This document shows, in pieces, positions 4,061 through 51,101 of a stretch of DNA of 64,000 bases. The notes under the pieces were generated by a model. The model saw only the letters and a program-made list of their open reading frames with translations. It ran no database searches and had not been told where the DNA came from. The position numbers and the translations under genes are program-made. The stretch spans positions 7,109,275 to 7,173,274 of the forward strand of contig OZ014418.1 of the NCBI GenBank assembly GCA_963965975.1. The letters run 5' to 3'. The first letter of the stretch is position 1; every line of letters begins with the position of its first letter. The stretch comes from Xestospongia bergquistia (taxonomy: Eukaryota > Porifera > Demospongiae > Haplosclerida > Petrosiidae).

Positions 4061-5521
4061 TTAACACTCAGACTTTAAAATTGTTGTGATTTCTTGTTCC
4101 ATAAATGCCCAAGGTGTCGTACTACCTTGAACTAAACATTTCAGTCCACTTGGACAATAGACATCTTTGGAGTTAGACATTTGTTGCTTAATACTGTCCC
4201 GAGAGCATGAGAAACAAAATTTATGCATCGCCATTGATGGACATTGTACAAATCTGGTGTCATCAAGTGCTTTGTGACAGAGCAAACACTCCATTGCTTC
4301 AGCAGTTTTCTTATCATGAGGAGAGTGTGGACTGGAAGCTCCATTGGTTCGTGGGGAGCCATTACTTTCTGAGGGGGAAGATGGGTTTTCGCCTACAGGT
4401 GAAGGAACATGATTATCATCTGTTCCATCTTCTGTTGGTTTGCCTTTCTTTGTTTCAGTTTCTTCCTCGTTTGATGAGCGCCTTTTTCTGTTAAGTAAGT
4501 TGTTTTTTAGAAAACCGCGGGTGGAGCTCATGTTTGCTGGTGGAATGTTGGGGTGTTTGGGGTCAACGTATGGCAGAGGGAGGAGGTCTTTTTTGACGGG
4601 TCCACGGAAAAATCGAACTTCTTCTGTTAGCAATTCGCCTAGAACGCGCCATTCTTCATCTCCATGAGTTTTTTCGAATTCCAAATCTTTGTATCCATTC
4701 GAAGAAGCTCCTCGAAAGCCTCCACCAATACCAAGTCTTTCTCTGAACTCACCATACATTTGTCTCCCTGCTCCAGATGCACTTTGAAACACAGTGCCTG
4801 AGCCTATAGGATACTCGACAAAAACTTTCAGCTCATAGTCCGACCCTCTGCAAACAGCATCAAAAGCGATAACTCTTCCCATCAGAGAATGATCCTTAGA
4901 GAAGCGAACTCGAAATGGAGGAGATTTGCTGAGAATGTTGAGCGTATCTTGTATTTGCGCGAACCGTTGAGTTGTTTCTTGTTGCGGATGGACTTCCATT
5001 GGAATGCTTTTGTGCATAGGGAAAGCAATTCTAGCTGGAGCTGTAGTTGTGGGTACCATTGCTTGAGTATGTGCGAGAGGACCCAAACTAGCAGCTGCTT
5101 GAGTAGGAAAAGCAAAAGCTTGCTGTTTTCCTGCACTAGTCACTACAACTTTACTTCCATTGATCTGTCTTGCAGTTGGAATGACGTGATATCCAGTAGG
5201 GGAATGAGTTGCTATTGGTCTTGCAGGAGCTGTCAGTGCTAAGGGGATTTCGTGTGGGCTTCTAGAACCATGTTCTTGACCACTGTGCGACGGTTGATGA
5301 TGGTGATGCTGTGAATCAAACGATCTTCTCATCTGTCTGGCTTTGTCGATCACTTCAGAAATGCGATCGATTCCCTCGTAGTTGCAGCAGGCTCTGCAGA
5401 CAGGCTCTGGAAAGTCGTATATCATGGCCCAAGGCCCTCGAGGCACCTCGCAAAGAAAGCACTTAAGTCTCCCCATAGGACTTGTTGCTCCAGGATTGCT
5501 TATAGAGCCAGGAGTAGCCAT
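4061..5521 (-). CDS. IRF2BPL: Interferon regulatory factor 2-binding protein-like (IRF2BP family)
   Basis: A single uninterrupted ORF of 486 codons encodes both signature ends of the IRF2BP family. Near the N-terminus is the IRF2BP zinc finger ([17 protein letters not shown], then [11 protein letters not shown], about residues 21-50). The C-terminus carries a C3HC4 RING ([37 protein letters not shown]) followed by [10 protein letters not shown] conserved middle block ([20 protein letters not shown] and VEYPIGSG) also matches the family. Linkers are rich in Ser, Pro, His and Gln. In vertebrates these nuclear proteins act as transcriptional corepressors, and some have E3 ligase activity. The coding region has no intron, unlike most genes in this window. 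Vertebrates have three paralogues, so the symbol marks the family rather than one-to-one orthology. Confidence 0.93.
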
Positions 5522-36871: not shown

Positions 36872-38646
36872 ATGACATTCATGCAGTTTTCCTTTTTTAT
36901 TCTTCTAACATTGTATCGATCTGGAATTGCTGGTACAATACAATGGATTAGAACTGCTCAGGGCACACAAGACCGGCTGTCTCCACAAGCAAACCTTACC
37001 TTTAGTAAAGACTTTCTTTCCAATGTTACAGTGACCATTGATAGGTAATGGAGAAATACACAGAGAGTTAAATACATATAGAATATCTCATTATGTAGAT
37101 CAATGACATATCAAACTATTATTGGCTTTGGTGGTGCATTTACAGATTCTTCATCTTACGTCTTTTCCAAGCTAAACTCCACCCATCAATCAACTATATT
37201 AGACATGTATTTCTCTGATAGAGGTCTACGCTATAATATGGCACGCCTCCCAATTGGGTCATGTGATTTTTCAGTCACGCACTATACGTATGATGACACA
37301 GCAGGTGACACAAATTTATCTCATTTTACAATTGATCATGATAAAACACAGATTATACCATTTATACAAGAAGCTATGGCTACACTCAAAAAATGGAGTA
37401 ATGACTCTTTAAATATTGTTGCTTCACCTTGGAGTCCCCCTGCCTGGATGAAAAAGTTAAATGATGCATATTGTCCTTTATACTGTGTGGACTGCACATT
37501 GAAAGATGAGTACCAGCAAACATGGGCAGACTATTTCTCAAAATTCATATCAGCCTATCAAGACATAGGCATTTCAATTTGGGGAGTTACTGTACAAAAT
37601 GAGCCAGGGACTTGTCCTTTAGTTTATGAGGGAATGCATTTTACTGCAGAAACAGAACGTGATTATATTAGAGACTATTTAGGTCCAACGTTGAAGAGAG
37701 ATCATCCTGACATCAAATTGTTGATGTATGATCATAATAAAGATCATATAGTGAAGTGGTCTAATACTGTATACTCAGACAAGGTAACTTCTCAATTTGT
37801 GTGGGGTACTGCGGTACACTGGTATAGCGGAGATGACTTTGATAATCTTGAATCAGCTCATATCTTATATCCAGATAAACCAATCTTAGCTACAGAAGCT
37901 ACAGTGGCTCGAGAAAAAGATCCTGAAAACCCAACTTGGTCTTATGGAGAGCATTATGCTCATGATATTATTGGTGATATGAATAATTGGGTCGTGGGTT
38001 TTATTGATTGGAACCTCTTATTGGATCGATATGGGGGTCCTAATCATGCTGGACCTGGTGAGTGTCAGGATTTGATCAAATGTGGAAGTGATGCTATGAT
38101 ACTGGCTGATCTAGACAAACAGATTCTTTATCCTCAAATATTCTATTACTACGTAGGTCATATTAGGTGAGTTAATTAAATTATTCATTAATTGTTCCTA
38201 TTTAAGTGAATTCAAAAAAATTAAGAAATTACCATAGCAACAATTTTAATTTCCATGTGTAATTGGCAAGTTTTAAAACTGACTATAATTATATATATAT
38301 ATATATAATATCATTAATATATATTATACAGTGTACATGTGTATTATAATATATTAATCATAGCATATATTTGTTCCATGTAAATTTATCTACATATATT
38401 ATGATTACTTTTTCCTATAGTAAATATACTCCTCGTGGTTCACTGAGAATTTATAACAAGGCTTTTGGGAATAGCTTGGAATGTACAGCATTTTTAACAC
38501 CAGACAAGCAGGTTGTCGTGGTTGTAATGAACACTAGTGACCAACCAATCACATTTAAACTGATTGATACTGTCAATAGCGGAAATATACAAGCTGTGAA
38601 AATAACTGCCTTGGCTCACAGCATACAAACTTTTATTTATTCTTAA
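36872..38646 (+). CDS. GBA: Glucosylceramidase (acid beta-glucosidase, GH30)
   Basis: Three exons (36872-37044, 37099-38166, 38421-38646) give 488 codons. The enzyme hydrolyses glucosylceramide to glucose and ceramide in lysosomes. The ATG at 36872 gives a plausible signal peptide (MTFMQFSFFILLTLYRSGIA). The GH30 core is clear: TIIGFGGAFTDSS, YNMARLPIGSCDFS, VASPWSPPAWMK. The acid/base Glu is in TVQNEPGTC (about residue 226) and the nucleophile Glu in ILATEATV (about residue 324). The C-terminal beta-domain ends KQVVVVVMNTSDQPIT. The usual Cys-rich start of mature GBA is not in this frame; see findings. The gene lies 205 bp after PYG and 115 bp before MAP10. Confidence 0.92.
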
Positions 38647-44418: not shown

Positions 44419-47400
44419 CTACGATAAACCAGCCCTACTAGTCAACATCTTTAATTCCAAACTGCCCAGACTTTGCCACGACATGATGACACCATTTTCA
44501 TAAGAAATTTGAGTTTTCAAGTATGACTCTTCTCCAAACCCACCACTGAGGACCACCTGCATATCATTAGGATTAAGATCTGGGATAGACATGAGGCATC
44601 TGCTGGCATTACGATGAGCATGAAACCAAGTAATGATTTCAGGTTGGGGTGTAGCAGTCAATAATATTATAACACCAATCGACACACCCACCCAGACAAC
44701 ATCTTGAGAGCATTCCAGGGACAAAAGGCGAAGATTAGTTTTTTCTAGATTATCTTGTTCGCAAATCTTGATTAACAGGTCAGACAAGTCAATTAAACCT
44801 GTTCGCTCACAAGAGCTAGCATCCCAGCTCACAAGTACAAGAGACCCTCGAATTATACTCCACACAAGTTTACTTTTCTCTGATAAGACAAGGGCATAGA
44901 CTTGGTCATTGGGTTTGCAAGCCTCCCAACGTTTAGCGATAGCTATTTCTTCATCAGCAGACAAAACTATAATTTCATTACCACAACATACCCAAACACA
45001 TTCTCCAACAGAAATCATAGCAATGATAGCTTTACTGCTAATCTTTAATGAGTCAAACACTCGAGGAAACTGGAGTTTTTCATAGTAAGTTAAAGTCCCA
45101 TTGGCAAGACCCACAAAAGCGTATTTATCATTTGTAGCAATGTGAGTGACTGAGTCTTTTAAATAGACACGATCAGTGAAGTTAAATGTTGTTGAATCAT
45201 AAACATGGATGCAGGCTTCCAGCATACCTACCCATACTTTACTATCCACAGTGCTTATAGCATTAGCTCTTTCCTTCAACTCTAAACTCCCTTGGACAGT
45301 GAGATTTGTAGCATTAAGTATAAATATTTGAGTGCCTTCTATAAGTAGTTCTGTCCCGTCAACTCCATTATCACGAAAAACATTGTACTCACCATAAGCC
45401 CATACTTGTCGGAGAGAGGGAACAAAACAACACCCACGGACTGAGACGCAATCTCGCAATATTTGAGTATTAAGGTGGCATTGAAACTGAGGATTAGAAA
45501 TCAAGTGTACAAGGTTGAGTGCCGAGGGTCGCTGAGTCATGTCCTCCTCCCAACATTCCTCCATCAACTTAACAAGAGTTTGAAACTGATGTGTGACCAA
45601 ACCTGTGAGCTTAGGTTTGTGGGCAATGTTGGCTTTTTCACATGCAAATGGCTGCCAACGAGCAACAAGCTCATACAGCAACACACCAAATGAGTAAATG
45701 TCCACTTTCTCTGTGTACTCTTCATTGAATTCGTATCGAACCATTTCAGGAGCTGGGTAAAACGAAAAGTCTGTCTTGCCTAATAAACCACTAGGTGTGG
45801 TAAAAGCAGCACGATTAAACTGAGCTAGCTTGACACTAATTTCATCTTTAAACTCCATAGACCATGCAAGAATTGAATCTGTTTTAAGCGTACGATAAAT
45901 GATGCCTTGTTTATGAAGATAAGTTAATGCAGACACTACTTGCCGGGCAATATGAAAACGAACGAGTCGAGATATCTCTTGTTCATTATCACTGAGTTTC
46001 TCCAACAAGGTACCCAGAGGACTTCTTTCTAGTAAGACAGCAGGAGGGGAGAGGCAGAAGCCAAATATACGAATGATATTAGGATGATTAAGATGAGTCA
46101 GCATTTCCACTTCCTGACGCAAAGCTGACAAAGGAACTGTGTATGATTTGGCTTCTGAAAATGAGTGTACCTTGACTGTAACAGGTTGACCATTGAAAGT
46201 ACCATAACACAATAAAGTGTTATTGTCTTGGTAAATTGTTCGAGACTCTTGGTAAGAAAAAGATTCAGCTGGAAGGTTTAGCGATGAAGGAAGATCAACC
46301 AGGACATACTCAGGAATAAGATCTCGTAGAGGGATGGGATCAACGTGATGGTGACAATTATGGGAAAATGCTTCTTTCTCCTTCAATGCTACAAAACAGG
46401 TTTCACTAATAAAGTTTGTGGCACCTCCTCCAATACAGGATCCTAGGTCTCTCACACACATAGGACATAGTATTATCTGGGTTAGGCCTAACTGTGAAGA
46501 GGGTTGAATCTGTGGGGAGAACTCGGGATAACGTTGCTCAAGGAGCTTCTGAATTAACCAACACATACGAGCCATAATGTCACGACCTTCGTCTCCATCA
46601 CTAGCACAGACTTCAATTCCACTTTCCTCCAAACCGAGGTCACTAGTTTGCGAATATACTGCTACAGAGACTTGTTCTGTGATAAGATGAATACCGGTTC
46701 TCCACACAAATATACCTCGAGACAATTCCACAGGGTCATTACTAATATGATGAGATTTGGTTGGATTTCCTTTTACTCGTCTGTGAGAACCACTATCTTT
46801 TTCAGGTGGTTTCTGAACCAACTCAATCCCATCCTCAGAAGTAGATGGGTTAACGGTGTCGCTTTCGTGTGGTGAAGAAGAATGAACCTCAGATGTAACG
46901 TAAGGTTCACCAAGCACTTTATGATCTGAAGGAGATGTTGGAGAAGAAGATTCTTCATTGAGTAGTTCAAGTGAATTAACAGAACTACTTTTAAATTCTG
47001 ATGCCTTCAATAAATTAAGATAGATCATATCATTAGGGGTAAAGAGGCGTGGCAAGTGAAAAAGAACATGACTTGTCATATATAACCAAAAATCTTCAGG
47101 CAATGCTTTCCCCTTTGGGATAAATTGGCGACGGTAACAACCTACTTGAAGCATTGCCAAAGGACGTGAGTTAGAAGGAAAAAGAGAAGGAATTAAGTAT
47201 GTTGTATCAGATATTGGTAAAAGGATCGCAAAACGAACCATTAAGCGTATAAGAGCAGCCATAATACCTTTCTGATTGTTACCTAGTTTCAAAAGATTAA
47301 AGAGCTTATTAACGGAAACTATTGGTTTAATAGCATGATGATAATGTAACCATTGTAGGATACGATGGATAGTACCCACAACCCATTCAGGATGAAGAAA

Positions 47401-50100
47401 ATAATATTGATCAAGACGTACATTAGGGTCTTCAAAATGCATTAAATACCCCACTTCTTGCAGGAAAGACATTATAACTGGCAATTCCATATCATCGGGC
47501 ATGTCTTGGCCTAGAGCAGTTTCAAACATAGACCAAAGTGAGCCTTCTTCCATAATGCCATGTCGACCACTCGTTTTCAAGTTAGTATGCTCTCTTTCAA
47601 TCACAGGTATTAGGTTATAATAATTCTCGGGGTATTGACGCCCAACAACTTGAGAACCGTTTACTGTCATCTGAGTAGCTACTTCGTAAATTTTTATTCT
47701 AATATCAATTGAAGCCTCTTTAGGGTTTGTGTTATTACTTGGTAAAAAAACCAGGCCATGAAATTGTATGTTTTGATAGGCAGGTTGATTAAGCAAACTC
47801 ATCAATCGTTTGCTTAACTGTGTTGTGTTAGTTTCAAGCCAGGTGTCAAATGGATCGGGGAGGATAGCTGTAACAAGGATGTTAGCTCGGGCAAAATGAC
47901 GAGCAATTCCATCAACATACATCTTGATTTGTTCTCTAATATCACCTGTTCTTGTCATATCCCAGACTAATACATACAAACAATTTGATGTATAAATACA
48001 AGGATAGAGAGAACGATAATCTTTTTGAACACCAATCATCCATGTATTAAAGACCAGCTTTTGAATCCCAAAGAATTTAAAAGGACGATAAGACCATTGA
48101 AAGAAGTCCATCTCTGGCAAATGAGACCCAGGTGGACAGGTAATTTGTCTCAGACGAGAGAACATAGCATGTTTTCCGATACTTGAATTGCACATTACAA
48201 CTAACTTCATTATATTGCATGGTTTATTAGAACGTGCGCGTGACTTAACAAAAGCACGTACTAGACGAGGACCTGAAGGAGGGGTACCTGTAGGAAAATC
48301 ATTAATGTTACAATTTGCAACATTCAAATTAGCCAACTTGTCTAGCATTTCCATTTCTCGAGGGAGAGAAGTAATAGGCATATAGCTTAGATCTAGGGTA
48401 GTAAGAGATCGTATGCGACAAAGACATTTCGGAACAACTGTAAACTTATTATGACTAAGTTGAAGAATTTCTAACATTGAATTTTGAATGCTAGATGGCA
48501 AATTTGTCAAGTAATTATGAGAAAGATCAAGATTAATGAGACTTGGCGACCAATTTATTAATTCCGGCAGCTCCTTGAGCTTGTTCTGACTCAAATTCAA
48601 CCACTCCAAATTAGGAAGGGAAAACAAGTCAACAGATATCACTTCTAAAAGATTACTCGAGAGGTCAAGTCGACGAAGTTGAGCGGCTTGAAGGAATTCT
48701 AGTGGGATCTTTCTCAAATGATTATTACCAAGCTTCAAGTTTACAACCCATGGAACTATGGAATAAATCCAAGAGGGGTGGAGCAAAGTGAGTTTAAGAC
48801 GACTCCAGTCCACTTGTTTTCGTCTCATATCTAAATCTGTGCAAAGAAGCAGTTCTCGTGTTGCATCAAAGTTTCTCACCATAATAGAAACAGCAATGGG
48901 ACAGTACATTTTGACTGTACCCTGAGATAAGAGTTGATGAACATCAGGCATGAACCATGGAGAGTTATCAATGCTAGGTGGTTCTGATAATAGTGAGCGA
49001 ATAGCTTGACAATCTCCAGTGATTGTAGCTTTGCAGAGCAATAGCATTGCAATAGCTTTTAAACATTCTTGTTGGATAGCTAGATTAAGAGCACAATCCA
49101 GTCTGTGTGTGTGTGTATGAGAGAGAGAGAGAGAGGGGGGGGGAGGGAGGGAGGGAGGGAGGGAGGGAGAGAGAGAGAGAGAGACAGAGAGAGAATCAAT
49201 CAATTTTAATCAAGAAACACATAAATTACAATAAATATAATAGCAGCTTTAGATTGTATGTTTTATTTAATTAACTAATAATAACTAGGGATACCGACCT
49301 TCTTGCACCTGCTAAAATAAGTGGTGCTATATTTTCAACAGCTTCATTGAGAACAGCTTGAAGAAGTGCTTCTTCAATATCTCTCATCTCTGGCTTAGTA
49401 CTTGTATTAGCAAAAGTAGTGAGACGTTTTTCTAAAACATGATTATCACTACGTCCAGCAAGATAGACAATTTCTATGAGGAGATAATATTATTATTATC
49501 ATTACAGGATGTCATCATGTGATGATGTGTGTAGGTGTCATAGAGATAAGATCACATTAGATTAGGGTGTGGTTGTGAGATAAAAATTAAAGCTGTTTTG
49601 CTTTGATAGTAGGAAGTGGCCAATTTATTATGTAAATATATGTTCATTAGGGGTAAATATGCAAAGATGGTACCTTTGCTTCTTAAGAGACGAAGTACTG
49701 CATCTCGTCTTTTACTTCTTTCAGCTTTACCTAATGCAGTGTGCCCGACATCATCCTCAGCAGTTAAATCAGCTCCGCCTTCTAATAACGCTTGTACACA
49801 GAGAACGTGACCTTTAGCAGCTGCAAGATGTAATGGAGTTTGGTTGTTTTTTCCTCTCACATCAGGGGACACTCCCTGTGATAAGAGTAATTGGATGACA
49901 TCTGGTTGATCTCCATCGACTGCCTCATGTAGCAGAGTATTTCCTTTTGTCGTACGAACTGTAAAATAATTCAGGATTCCTTCTTCATAATAAAGAGCAT
50001 CTCTTAGTCTCTCTAAGTTGCCCTCTTTACACCAACGATATAACTCTGCAAATATGTACTTGTCTATTCCCGGGACATCCACAGCAAGTGATGCTGCCAT
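44419..50100 (-). CDS. LRRK: LRRK-like ROCO protein with pseudokinase and degenerate Roc domain
   Basis: Three minus-strand exons (49674-50100, 49299-49473, 44419-49102) join in phase into 1761 codons. Domains in order: ankyrin repeats (about 50-145, e.g. TPLHLAAAKGHVLCVQALLE), about seven leucine-rich repeats (320-480, e.g. LEWLNLSQNKLKELP), a Roc GTPase-like domain (495-660), COR (690-900), a protein-kinase fold (1155-1430) and a beta-propeller-like C-terminus (1440-1750). This is the LRRK1/2 layout. Key residues are lost. The HRD Asp is Thr (IIYRTLKTDSIL, T1272), DFG is QFN (KLAQFNRAA, Q1295), and the P-loop reads CNSSIGKH instead of GxxxxGK[ST]. The ATP-binding Lys (VTVKV, K1178), the PAPEM motif and DIYSFGVLLYEL remain. 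It was probably retained as a scaffold or allosteric protein. The symbol marks the family only. Confidence 0.9.
49103..49195. repeat. GT/GA/GGGA microsatellite cluster at the last intron of the LRRK-like gene
   Basis: A (GT)n, (GA)n, G8, (GGGA)n and (GA)n patchwork. On the minus strand it is a CT- and CA-rich tract ending in cacacacacag, the acceptor of the 4.7-kb exon. Confidence 0.95.
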
Positions 50101-50223: not shown

Positions 50224-51101
50224 ATGGCAGAGAAGCATCCTCTACCTCAGGATAGTTTGTCAGGATTTGGAGCTTATAGCAACGATCAAAAGAGAATCAA
50301 GCTGGAGGATCAACAACTACAACCTGGGAAGGGTCAACTGGACCCTCATAATGCCCCACCTTCCCGTGTTATTCACGCTAGAGCAGTTCCAGATGGATGT
50401 ACGCATACACTACTGGTTAACGTGTTATCTTCATTTGGAAAAATCAGGTAAGTTAATAAACGGATTAAAGAACGCTCTCCTCGTCTCAGAGGACATGTAC
50501 TATTTTTGCAACTCAATTTCACAAGTTAGAAACCATATGGTGTATTTCCATGTGGTAATATATAGTTTTGTTCATACTCTCTCTTTCTACCTTTCCTTCT
50601 CTGTAGTTACATCACAATGATGCCTAAGCTAAGGCAGGCTCTTGTCGAGTTTGATAAACTAGAAGATGCTGTTGCTTGTGTGACCCACTGTCAGGTAGAG
50701 AACTTTTAATTATTAGGGACATCCCCCTCTTTCTATATAATCAGTTAATTTATTGGTACATTGCCTCTGGGAAATGCTTATAAGCAATAAGTAGTGTCTC
50801 ATAGGAGTTGCTATTTAGACATTATAGTAGTTAGTATTTACTTAAGTTACAATAGATGCCAGGTGTTTAAAGCACTCAGGACATCTTGTTGTATTGTAAA
50901 CACTTCATCTGTTACATACTATGTTTGCTATGTTGTAGTTGATGTTGATATTTTTTGTTTTTATGAAAAAAGAGATTGTTATGAACATTTTTTTCATTTT
51001 TTTCATTGACTATTGCTTTCAGTAATAGATTTGAAATTGAAAATATTTGACAATGATAACAATGAATGTTATAACATCAATAGTAGTGTGTTTTGATTAT
51101 G

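Follow-up and report, generated by a model that had tools for sequence, protein, structure and literature searches.

The window, the whole 64,000-nucleotide stretch analysed here, covers positions 7109275–7173274 of contig OZ014418.1 of Xestospongia bergquistia (labelled C8 in the genome; assembly 146.5 Mb) and carries a ROCO gene on its minus strand. The spliced model (50100–49674 + 49473–49299 + 49102–44419) encodes 1761 residues with a single terminal stop; both introns have GT..AG borders, and the exon boundaries were set by eye on genomic sequence alone. Exon 1 (49674..50100) contains the start codon and ankyrin repeats (Pfam Ank_2, 8e-19). Exon 2 (49299..49473) continues the N-terminal region in an open frame, which returned zero Pfam matches when searched alone, and exon 3 (44419..49102) encodes the remainder of the protein, LRR-ROC-COR-kinase-WD40, uninterrupted by introns up to a stop codon ending at 44419. 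A previous sequence-only reading had proposed a full-length ROCO frame of 1761 codons, a length that the splice model reproduces; the interval that it assigned, 45720–46240, takes in most of the kinase domain, but the whole gene occupies 44419–50100.

Within exon 3, the minus strand encodes leucine-rich repeats (48304..48741; Pfam LRR_8, 1.3e-16, three stretches, with the downstream border taken from LRR_14, a sub-cut-off match), a degenerate ROC GTPase domain (47875..48207; 22.1 bits, cut-off 27), COR-A (47179..47508; 46.2 bits, cut-off 35.3), COR-B (46312..46722; 19.9 bits, below the 27-bit cut-off), a pseudokinase domain (45505..46209; PF00069, 106.8 bits, cut-off 31.7) and a C-terminal WD40 propeller of LRRK2 type (44476..45237; Pfam Beta-prop_LRRK2, 8.8e-15). 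The resulting order, ANK-LRR-ROC-COR-kinase-WD40, is of the LRRK1 type, with ROC and COR-B below Pfam cut-offs, and includes the succession of ROC and COR within one multidomain protein by which ROCO proteins are defined (PMC4104024). Of the solved structures, human LRRK1 matches best, with E values of 2.4e-80 for the whole query and 1e-35 for the kinase part, and the ROC position aligns with the ROC domains of LRRK1 (E 1.1e-06) and LRRK2 (E 7.8e-05). Judged by its sequence, the protein is an LRRK1-like ROCO protein in which both enzymatic sites appear destroyed.

A neighbouring gene, which we take to encode an hnRNP L-like protein, starts at 50224 on the plus strand, divergently from the ROCO start codon at 50100 and ~120 bases from it, and the two genes likely share a promoter. 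A glycosyl hydrolase family 30 frame (37103–38170, plus strand, 1.7e-81) lies ~6 kb from the ROCO gene. LRRK proteins are linked to Parkinson disease, and family 30 is the family of glucocerebrosidase; that two genes related to Parkinson genes lie so near each other is probably due to chance. A single frame at 4061–5521 on the minus strand encodes an IRF-2BP1/2-like protein and contains three domains of that family.

Catalytic motifs of the kinase and ROC domains

Alignment with human LRRK1, LRRK2 and the paralogues showed YRT in place of HRD and QFN in place of DFG. On the minus strand, T1272 (ACG, 45889..45891) stands where the HRD catalytic Asp is expected, S1277 (TCA, 45874..45876) where the catalytic-loop Asn is expected and Q1295 (CAG, 45820..45822) where the DFG Asp is expected, with N1297 (AAT) at the DFG Gly; the glycine loop has Y, D and T at the loop-glycine positions and zero Gly. 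Each of these four codons lies 2–3 base changes from those expected (GAT/GAC, AAT/AAC, GAT/GAC and GGN, respectively), so single-base sequencing errors cannot explain the catalytic changes. The domain thus lacks the HRD-type Asp, the DFG-type Asp and the Gly loop of an active kinase, and it corresponds to a pseudokinase, that is, a kinase fold without the conserved catalytic residues, in which the Lys is kept.

Retained positions comprise K1178 (VAIK Lys), E1198 (helix-C Glu), the catalytic-loop Lys K1274, E1320 (APE Glu) and D1335 (helix-F Asp), together with the APE and DIYSFG motifs. L1202, Y1270, F1296 and D1335 occupy columns that presumably form the regulatory spine, and at the columns examined the residues are compatible with a formed spine. 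Among kinase invariants, defined as columns identical in six active rows with a residue in at least five, 3 of 11 catalytic or nucleotide-binding positions were kept vs 24 of 31 others (one-sided Fisher p 0.005; the catalytic list is the author's choice). Kinase decay is therefore not random: catalytic positions were lost, and fold positions were preferentially kept. An AlphaFold prediction of the kinase part without an alignment was uninformative (mean pLDDT 33.6).

The ROC GTPase is also degenerate. On the minus strand, the P-loop reads CNSSIGKH (48169..48192), with C505 for Gly and H512 for Ser/Thr while G510 and K511 are kept; G3 reads MIGV for DxxG (48028..48039; M556, V559), and G4 reads ILPD for THxD (47854..47865; D617 kept). 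Of the eight G-motif positions on which the intact ROCs used for comparison agree, five are altered, a pattern that would not be expected of an active ROC GTPase, and changes in G1, G3 and G4 alike point to a pseudo-GTPase whose ROC fold is inferred from alignment alone. The same residues are retained in the paralogues C8a and C10a and in human LRRK1/2, save Ser for Thr in the C8a G4. Of the conserved ROC columns, 3 of the 8 in G motifs and 9 of the 23 elsewhere were kept, and no catalytic-vs-other contrast was detected in this domain (p 0.64); ROC is degraded throughout, and the data do not show selection for its fold specifically.

These results bear out, at the level of sequence, the dead kinase proposed by the sequence-only reading: its residues and numbering (T1272 for the HRD Asp, Ser for Asn, QFN with Q1295) are exact, the glycine loop that it reported absent contains no Gly in the alignment, and the kinase fold that it called recognizable scores above the PF00069 cut-off and keeps K1178 and E1320. 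Its description of a dead kinase nevertheless understates the predicted loss, since the ROC GTPase motifs, which it left out and the present analysis adds, are broken too.

LRRK-type paralogues and probable recurrent kinase loss

At least ten LRRK-type loci, in which ROC-COR precedes a kinase or kinase-like region, were read in this genome, a lower bound because large ROCO frames outside the count include those at C15 1.40–1.71 Mb and C3 2.07–2.13 Mb. Six of the ten retain the catalytic Lys, helix-C Glu, HRD-type Asp, Asn and DFG-type Asp, with FRD/YRD/HRD and DFG/DYG/DCG motifs, and their G motifs are mostly intact where seen, which in C12 means outside the P-loop; four are degenerate. The sequence-only reading had suggested looking for an active LRRK paralogue, and active-looking candidates were found both on the same contig, where C8a, C8b and C8c form a tandem of three at 7.277–7.299 Mb, ~117–140 kb from the ROCO gene, and elsewhere. 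C10b (C10 4.84 Mb) was read as far as its DYG, C12 (C12 4.85 Mb) groups with human LRRK2 (support 87/83), and C5 (C5 8.24 Mb) carries DCG, Ala at the third loop Gly and a ROC that retains all G motifs save the G3 Gly, which is Asp. C8c has Ser at the third loop Gly. These paralogues share with the ROCO gene the succession of ROC-COR and kinase but, unlike it, retain the catalytic motifs.

The other three degenerate loci resemble the ROCO gene in carrying broken kinase motifs within otherwise long frames, each with different changes. C1 (C1 12.42 Mb) has FRE and GSH, with damaged ROC G3 and G4; C3 (C3 54 kb) keeps HRD and has GFS for DFG (Gly for Asp, Ser for Gly), with its ROC motifs lost; in C10a (C10 5.69 Mb), the part read lacks any Pfam kinase match, the ROC motifs are intact and one in-frame TAG occurs across the searched stretch. 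The catalytic-vs-other contrast in the kinase was significant in C1 (p 0.031) and not in C3 (p 0.20) or C10a (p 0.13). Between dead C1 and active C8a, the kinase domain gave dN 0.39, dS 1.77 and dN/dS 0.22; if C1 took half of the dS, a branch that was neutral throughout would need more non-synonymous change than the total seen. Together these loci form a natural series, from C10a (ROC intact, kinase lost) through C1 and C3 (both damaged) to the ROCO gene (both dead, fold kept).

Grouping all four broken kinases (ROCO gene, C1, C3 and C10a) in one clade was rejected (AU p 0.00135), as was a clade of the ROCO gene, C1 and C3 (AU p 0.00089); the AU test was run after the tree was seen, on a group defined by kinase motifs, and is open to the same attraction between long branches as the model. 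Because one clade is rejected and C1 clusters with the active-looking C8 genes (support 95/97 and 96/97 in two trees), the family has probably lost kinase function on two or more occasions. In a first body tree, the ROCO protein joined C3 and C5 (three open rows), and once C3 was removed it grouped with C5; both placements were flagged for long branches, and the end branch of the protein measures 1.73 changes per column. The kinase-only tree left 8 of 9 inner branches open, and the ROC-COR tree was likewise mostly open. Animal LRRKs fall into LRRK1–4, a long helix C being the LRRK1 signature (PMC10643122); the words sponge and Porifera are absent from the main text of that source. As to placement among LRRK1 and LRRK2/3/4, the best match is LRRK1, the helix-C signature is absent and the kinase tree is open at most branches.

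Several further features of the paralogues were recorded. The LRR-to-WD40 body lies in a single open frame in the ROCO gene, C8a–c, C1 and C3 (and in C10a as far as read) and is split into many exons in C10b and C12; an RNA-copied ancestor or intron loss may lie behind the single-frame loci. C8c (minus strand, C8 7.295–7.299 Mb) encodes LRR-ROC-COR-kinase-WD40 in one frame that then continues into another protein kinase domain; with two PF00069 stretches, the second also read by eye, it is an LRRK with two kinases. In C8b, the stretch read stops at the start of the corresponding extra kinase. Genome-wide, scoring 150 of 171 candidates gave at least 148 COR-A matches, which indicate a very large ROCO expansion, with many loci in tandem arrays of ~700-residue open frames. 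Expanded ROCO sets have been described in Dictyostelium, Trichoplax and Ectocarpus (PMC4104024).

Orthologues were sought with a four-sequence alignment (ROCO protein, L021, L024 and L025) as query. The scan of a genome contig collection yielded 41 loci, drawn from 192 stretches; every one carried a bacterial or archaeal record title and matched only within query residues 105–413 (LRR and surroundings, early ROC), none in the kinase. Two scans of viral contigs found no relative. Among the literature matches listed (titles and abstract openings), none described a sponge LRRK, an LRRK-type pseudokinase family or a ROCO protein that is dead in both domains.

Probable retention of the protein, rival readings and known pseudoenzymes

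Of all single-base changes in the ROCO coding sequence, 4.2% create a stop, and the probability that 1761 codons remain stop-free under neutral drift of 0.01, 0.02 or 0.05 substitutions per site is 0.11, 0.012 or 1.5e-5, respectively (point changes only, with an assumed transition weight of 2). Identity to the other full-length paralogues compared is ≤27%. Since ~2% neutral drift would leave the frame stop-free in only ~1% of cases, the catalytic changes most likely arose in a frame still under selection. The result lends indirect support to the selection on the frame that the sequence-only reading had proposed, and suggests that the gene was maintained through most of its divergence, which does not by itself prove a present function. 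Against C8a, dN/dS was 0.25 in ROC, 0.34 in the kinase, 0.38 in WD40 and 0.82 in COR-B, at a dS of 1.4–4 that is saturated, and LRR and COR-A yielded no estimate; the ratios therefore carry no weight here. Identity by domain was 43% in LRR, 33% in the kinase, 24–26% in COR, 24% in WD40 and 22% in ROC.

We consider it reasonably probable, at roughly 0.6, that the ROCO protein has lost both activities, as a pseudokinase and pseudo-GTPase, and is inert yet kept as a protein. It would then, we infer, neither phosphorylate nor cycle GTP, and the scheme in PMC5593906 would predict class (i), zero nucleotide binding, for both domains. A non-enzymatic role as scaffold or partner is probable, in which ANK, LRR, the kinase fold, COR and WD40 would serve as binding surfaces, COR and WD40 might join the protein to other ROCO/LRRK proteins and the scaffold could tune active paralogues, on the FAM20A–FAM20C model. 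LRRK proteins work as dimers, and because active-looking paralogues exist beside this one, such a partner role is plausible; ROC-COR has itself been discussed as a possible dimerization device (PMC4104024). Joining and tuning active paralogues is the mechanism that we judge most likely, and only tentatively so. A broader proposal, more doubtful, is that a set of dead LRRKs, arisen at least twice, regulates the active paralogues through mixed dimers, of which the ROCO protein would be the structural half.

Every binding-repeat domain is present, and it is possible, within the same overall reading of an inert but kept protein, that ANK, LRR and WD40 bind their own cargo without contact with an active paralogue; the observations fit this and the partner model alike. 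That the gene is instead dying, its function lost recently and a stop not yet acquired, is improbable: the degenerate ROC, the long end branch and the existence of decaying ROCO copies (5 of 148 COR-A matches carry in-frame stops) agree with it, but the splice sites are intact, kinase fold positions were preferentially kept, and drift of ~2%, which breaks the frame in 99 of 100 cases, is too little for the multi-base catalytic changes. Quite improbable, too, is an atypical protein that still phosphorylates or binds nucleotides by way of migrated residues; K1178, E1198 and K1274 would suit it, and pseudoenzymes with residual activity are on record (PMC10211241, PMC5593906), but the HRD Asp, loop Asn, DFG Asp and entire glycine loop are lost together, and the nearby D1276 also occurs in human LRRK1 and hence is no compensating change. 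Sequencing, assembly or gene-model error, conceivable with a single assembly as source, can be set aside given the 2–3 bases behind each key change, an intron-free open frame of 1594 codons and the different changes in the other broken paralogues.

If the ROCO protein is indeed inert yet kept, a natural LRRK with both sites dead by sequence, beside active-looking relatives, offers a ready test of LRRK scaffold function. Whether LRRK proteins have enzyme-independent functions bears on Parkinson drugs designed to block or eliminate LRRK2.

Human LRRK1, with its domain order ANK-LRR-ROC-COR-kinase-WD40, shares the full architecture of the ROCO protein and is its best match over both LRR-ROC-COR and the kinase; it has, however, the catalytic Asp, DYG and a canonical P-loop, all lost in the ROCO protein, which also lacks the long helix-C insertion of LRRK1. 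FAM20A, STRAD, MLKL, p190RhoGAP pG1 and CENP-M likewise lost catalytic or G motifs and kept a role as proteins (PMC10211241, PMC5593906); the pseudokinase FAM20A activates FAM20C through heterodimerization, and STRAD–LKB1 provides another model (PMC10211241). The retained roles of these five proteins have been tested, whereas the ROCO protein is known from its sequence. Pseudokinases, pseudo-GTPases and the ROCO family are thus already known, and what would set the ROCO protein apart from known pseudoenzymes, as a new variant, is the predicted combination of pseudokinase and pseudo-GTPase domains in one ROCO-type protein.
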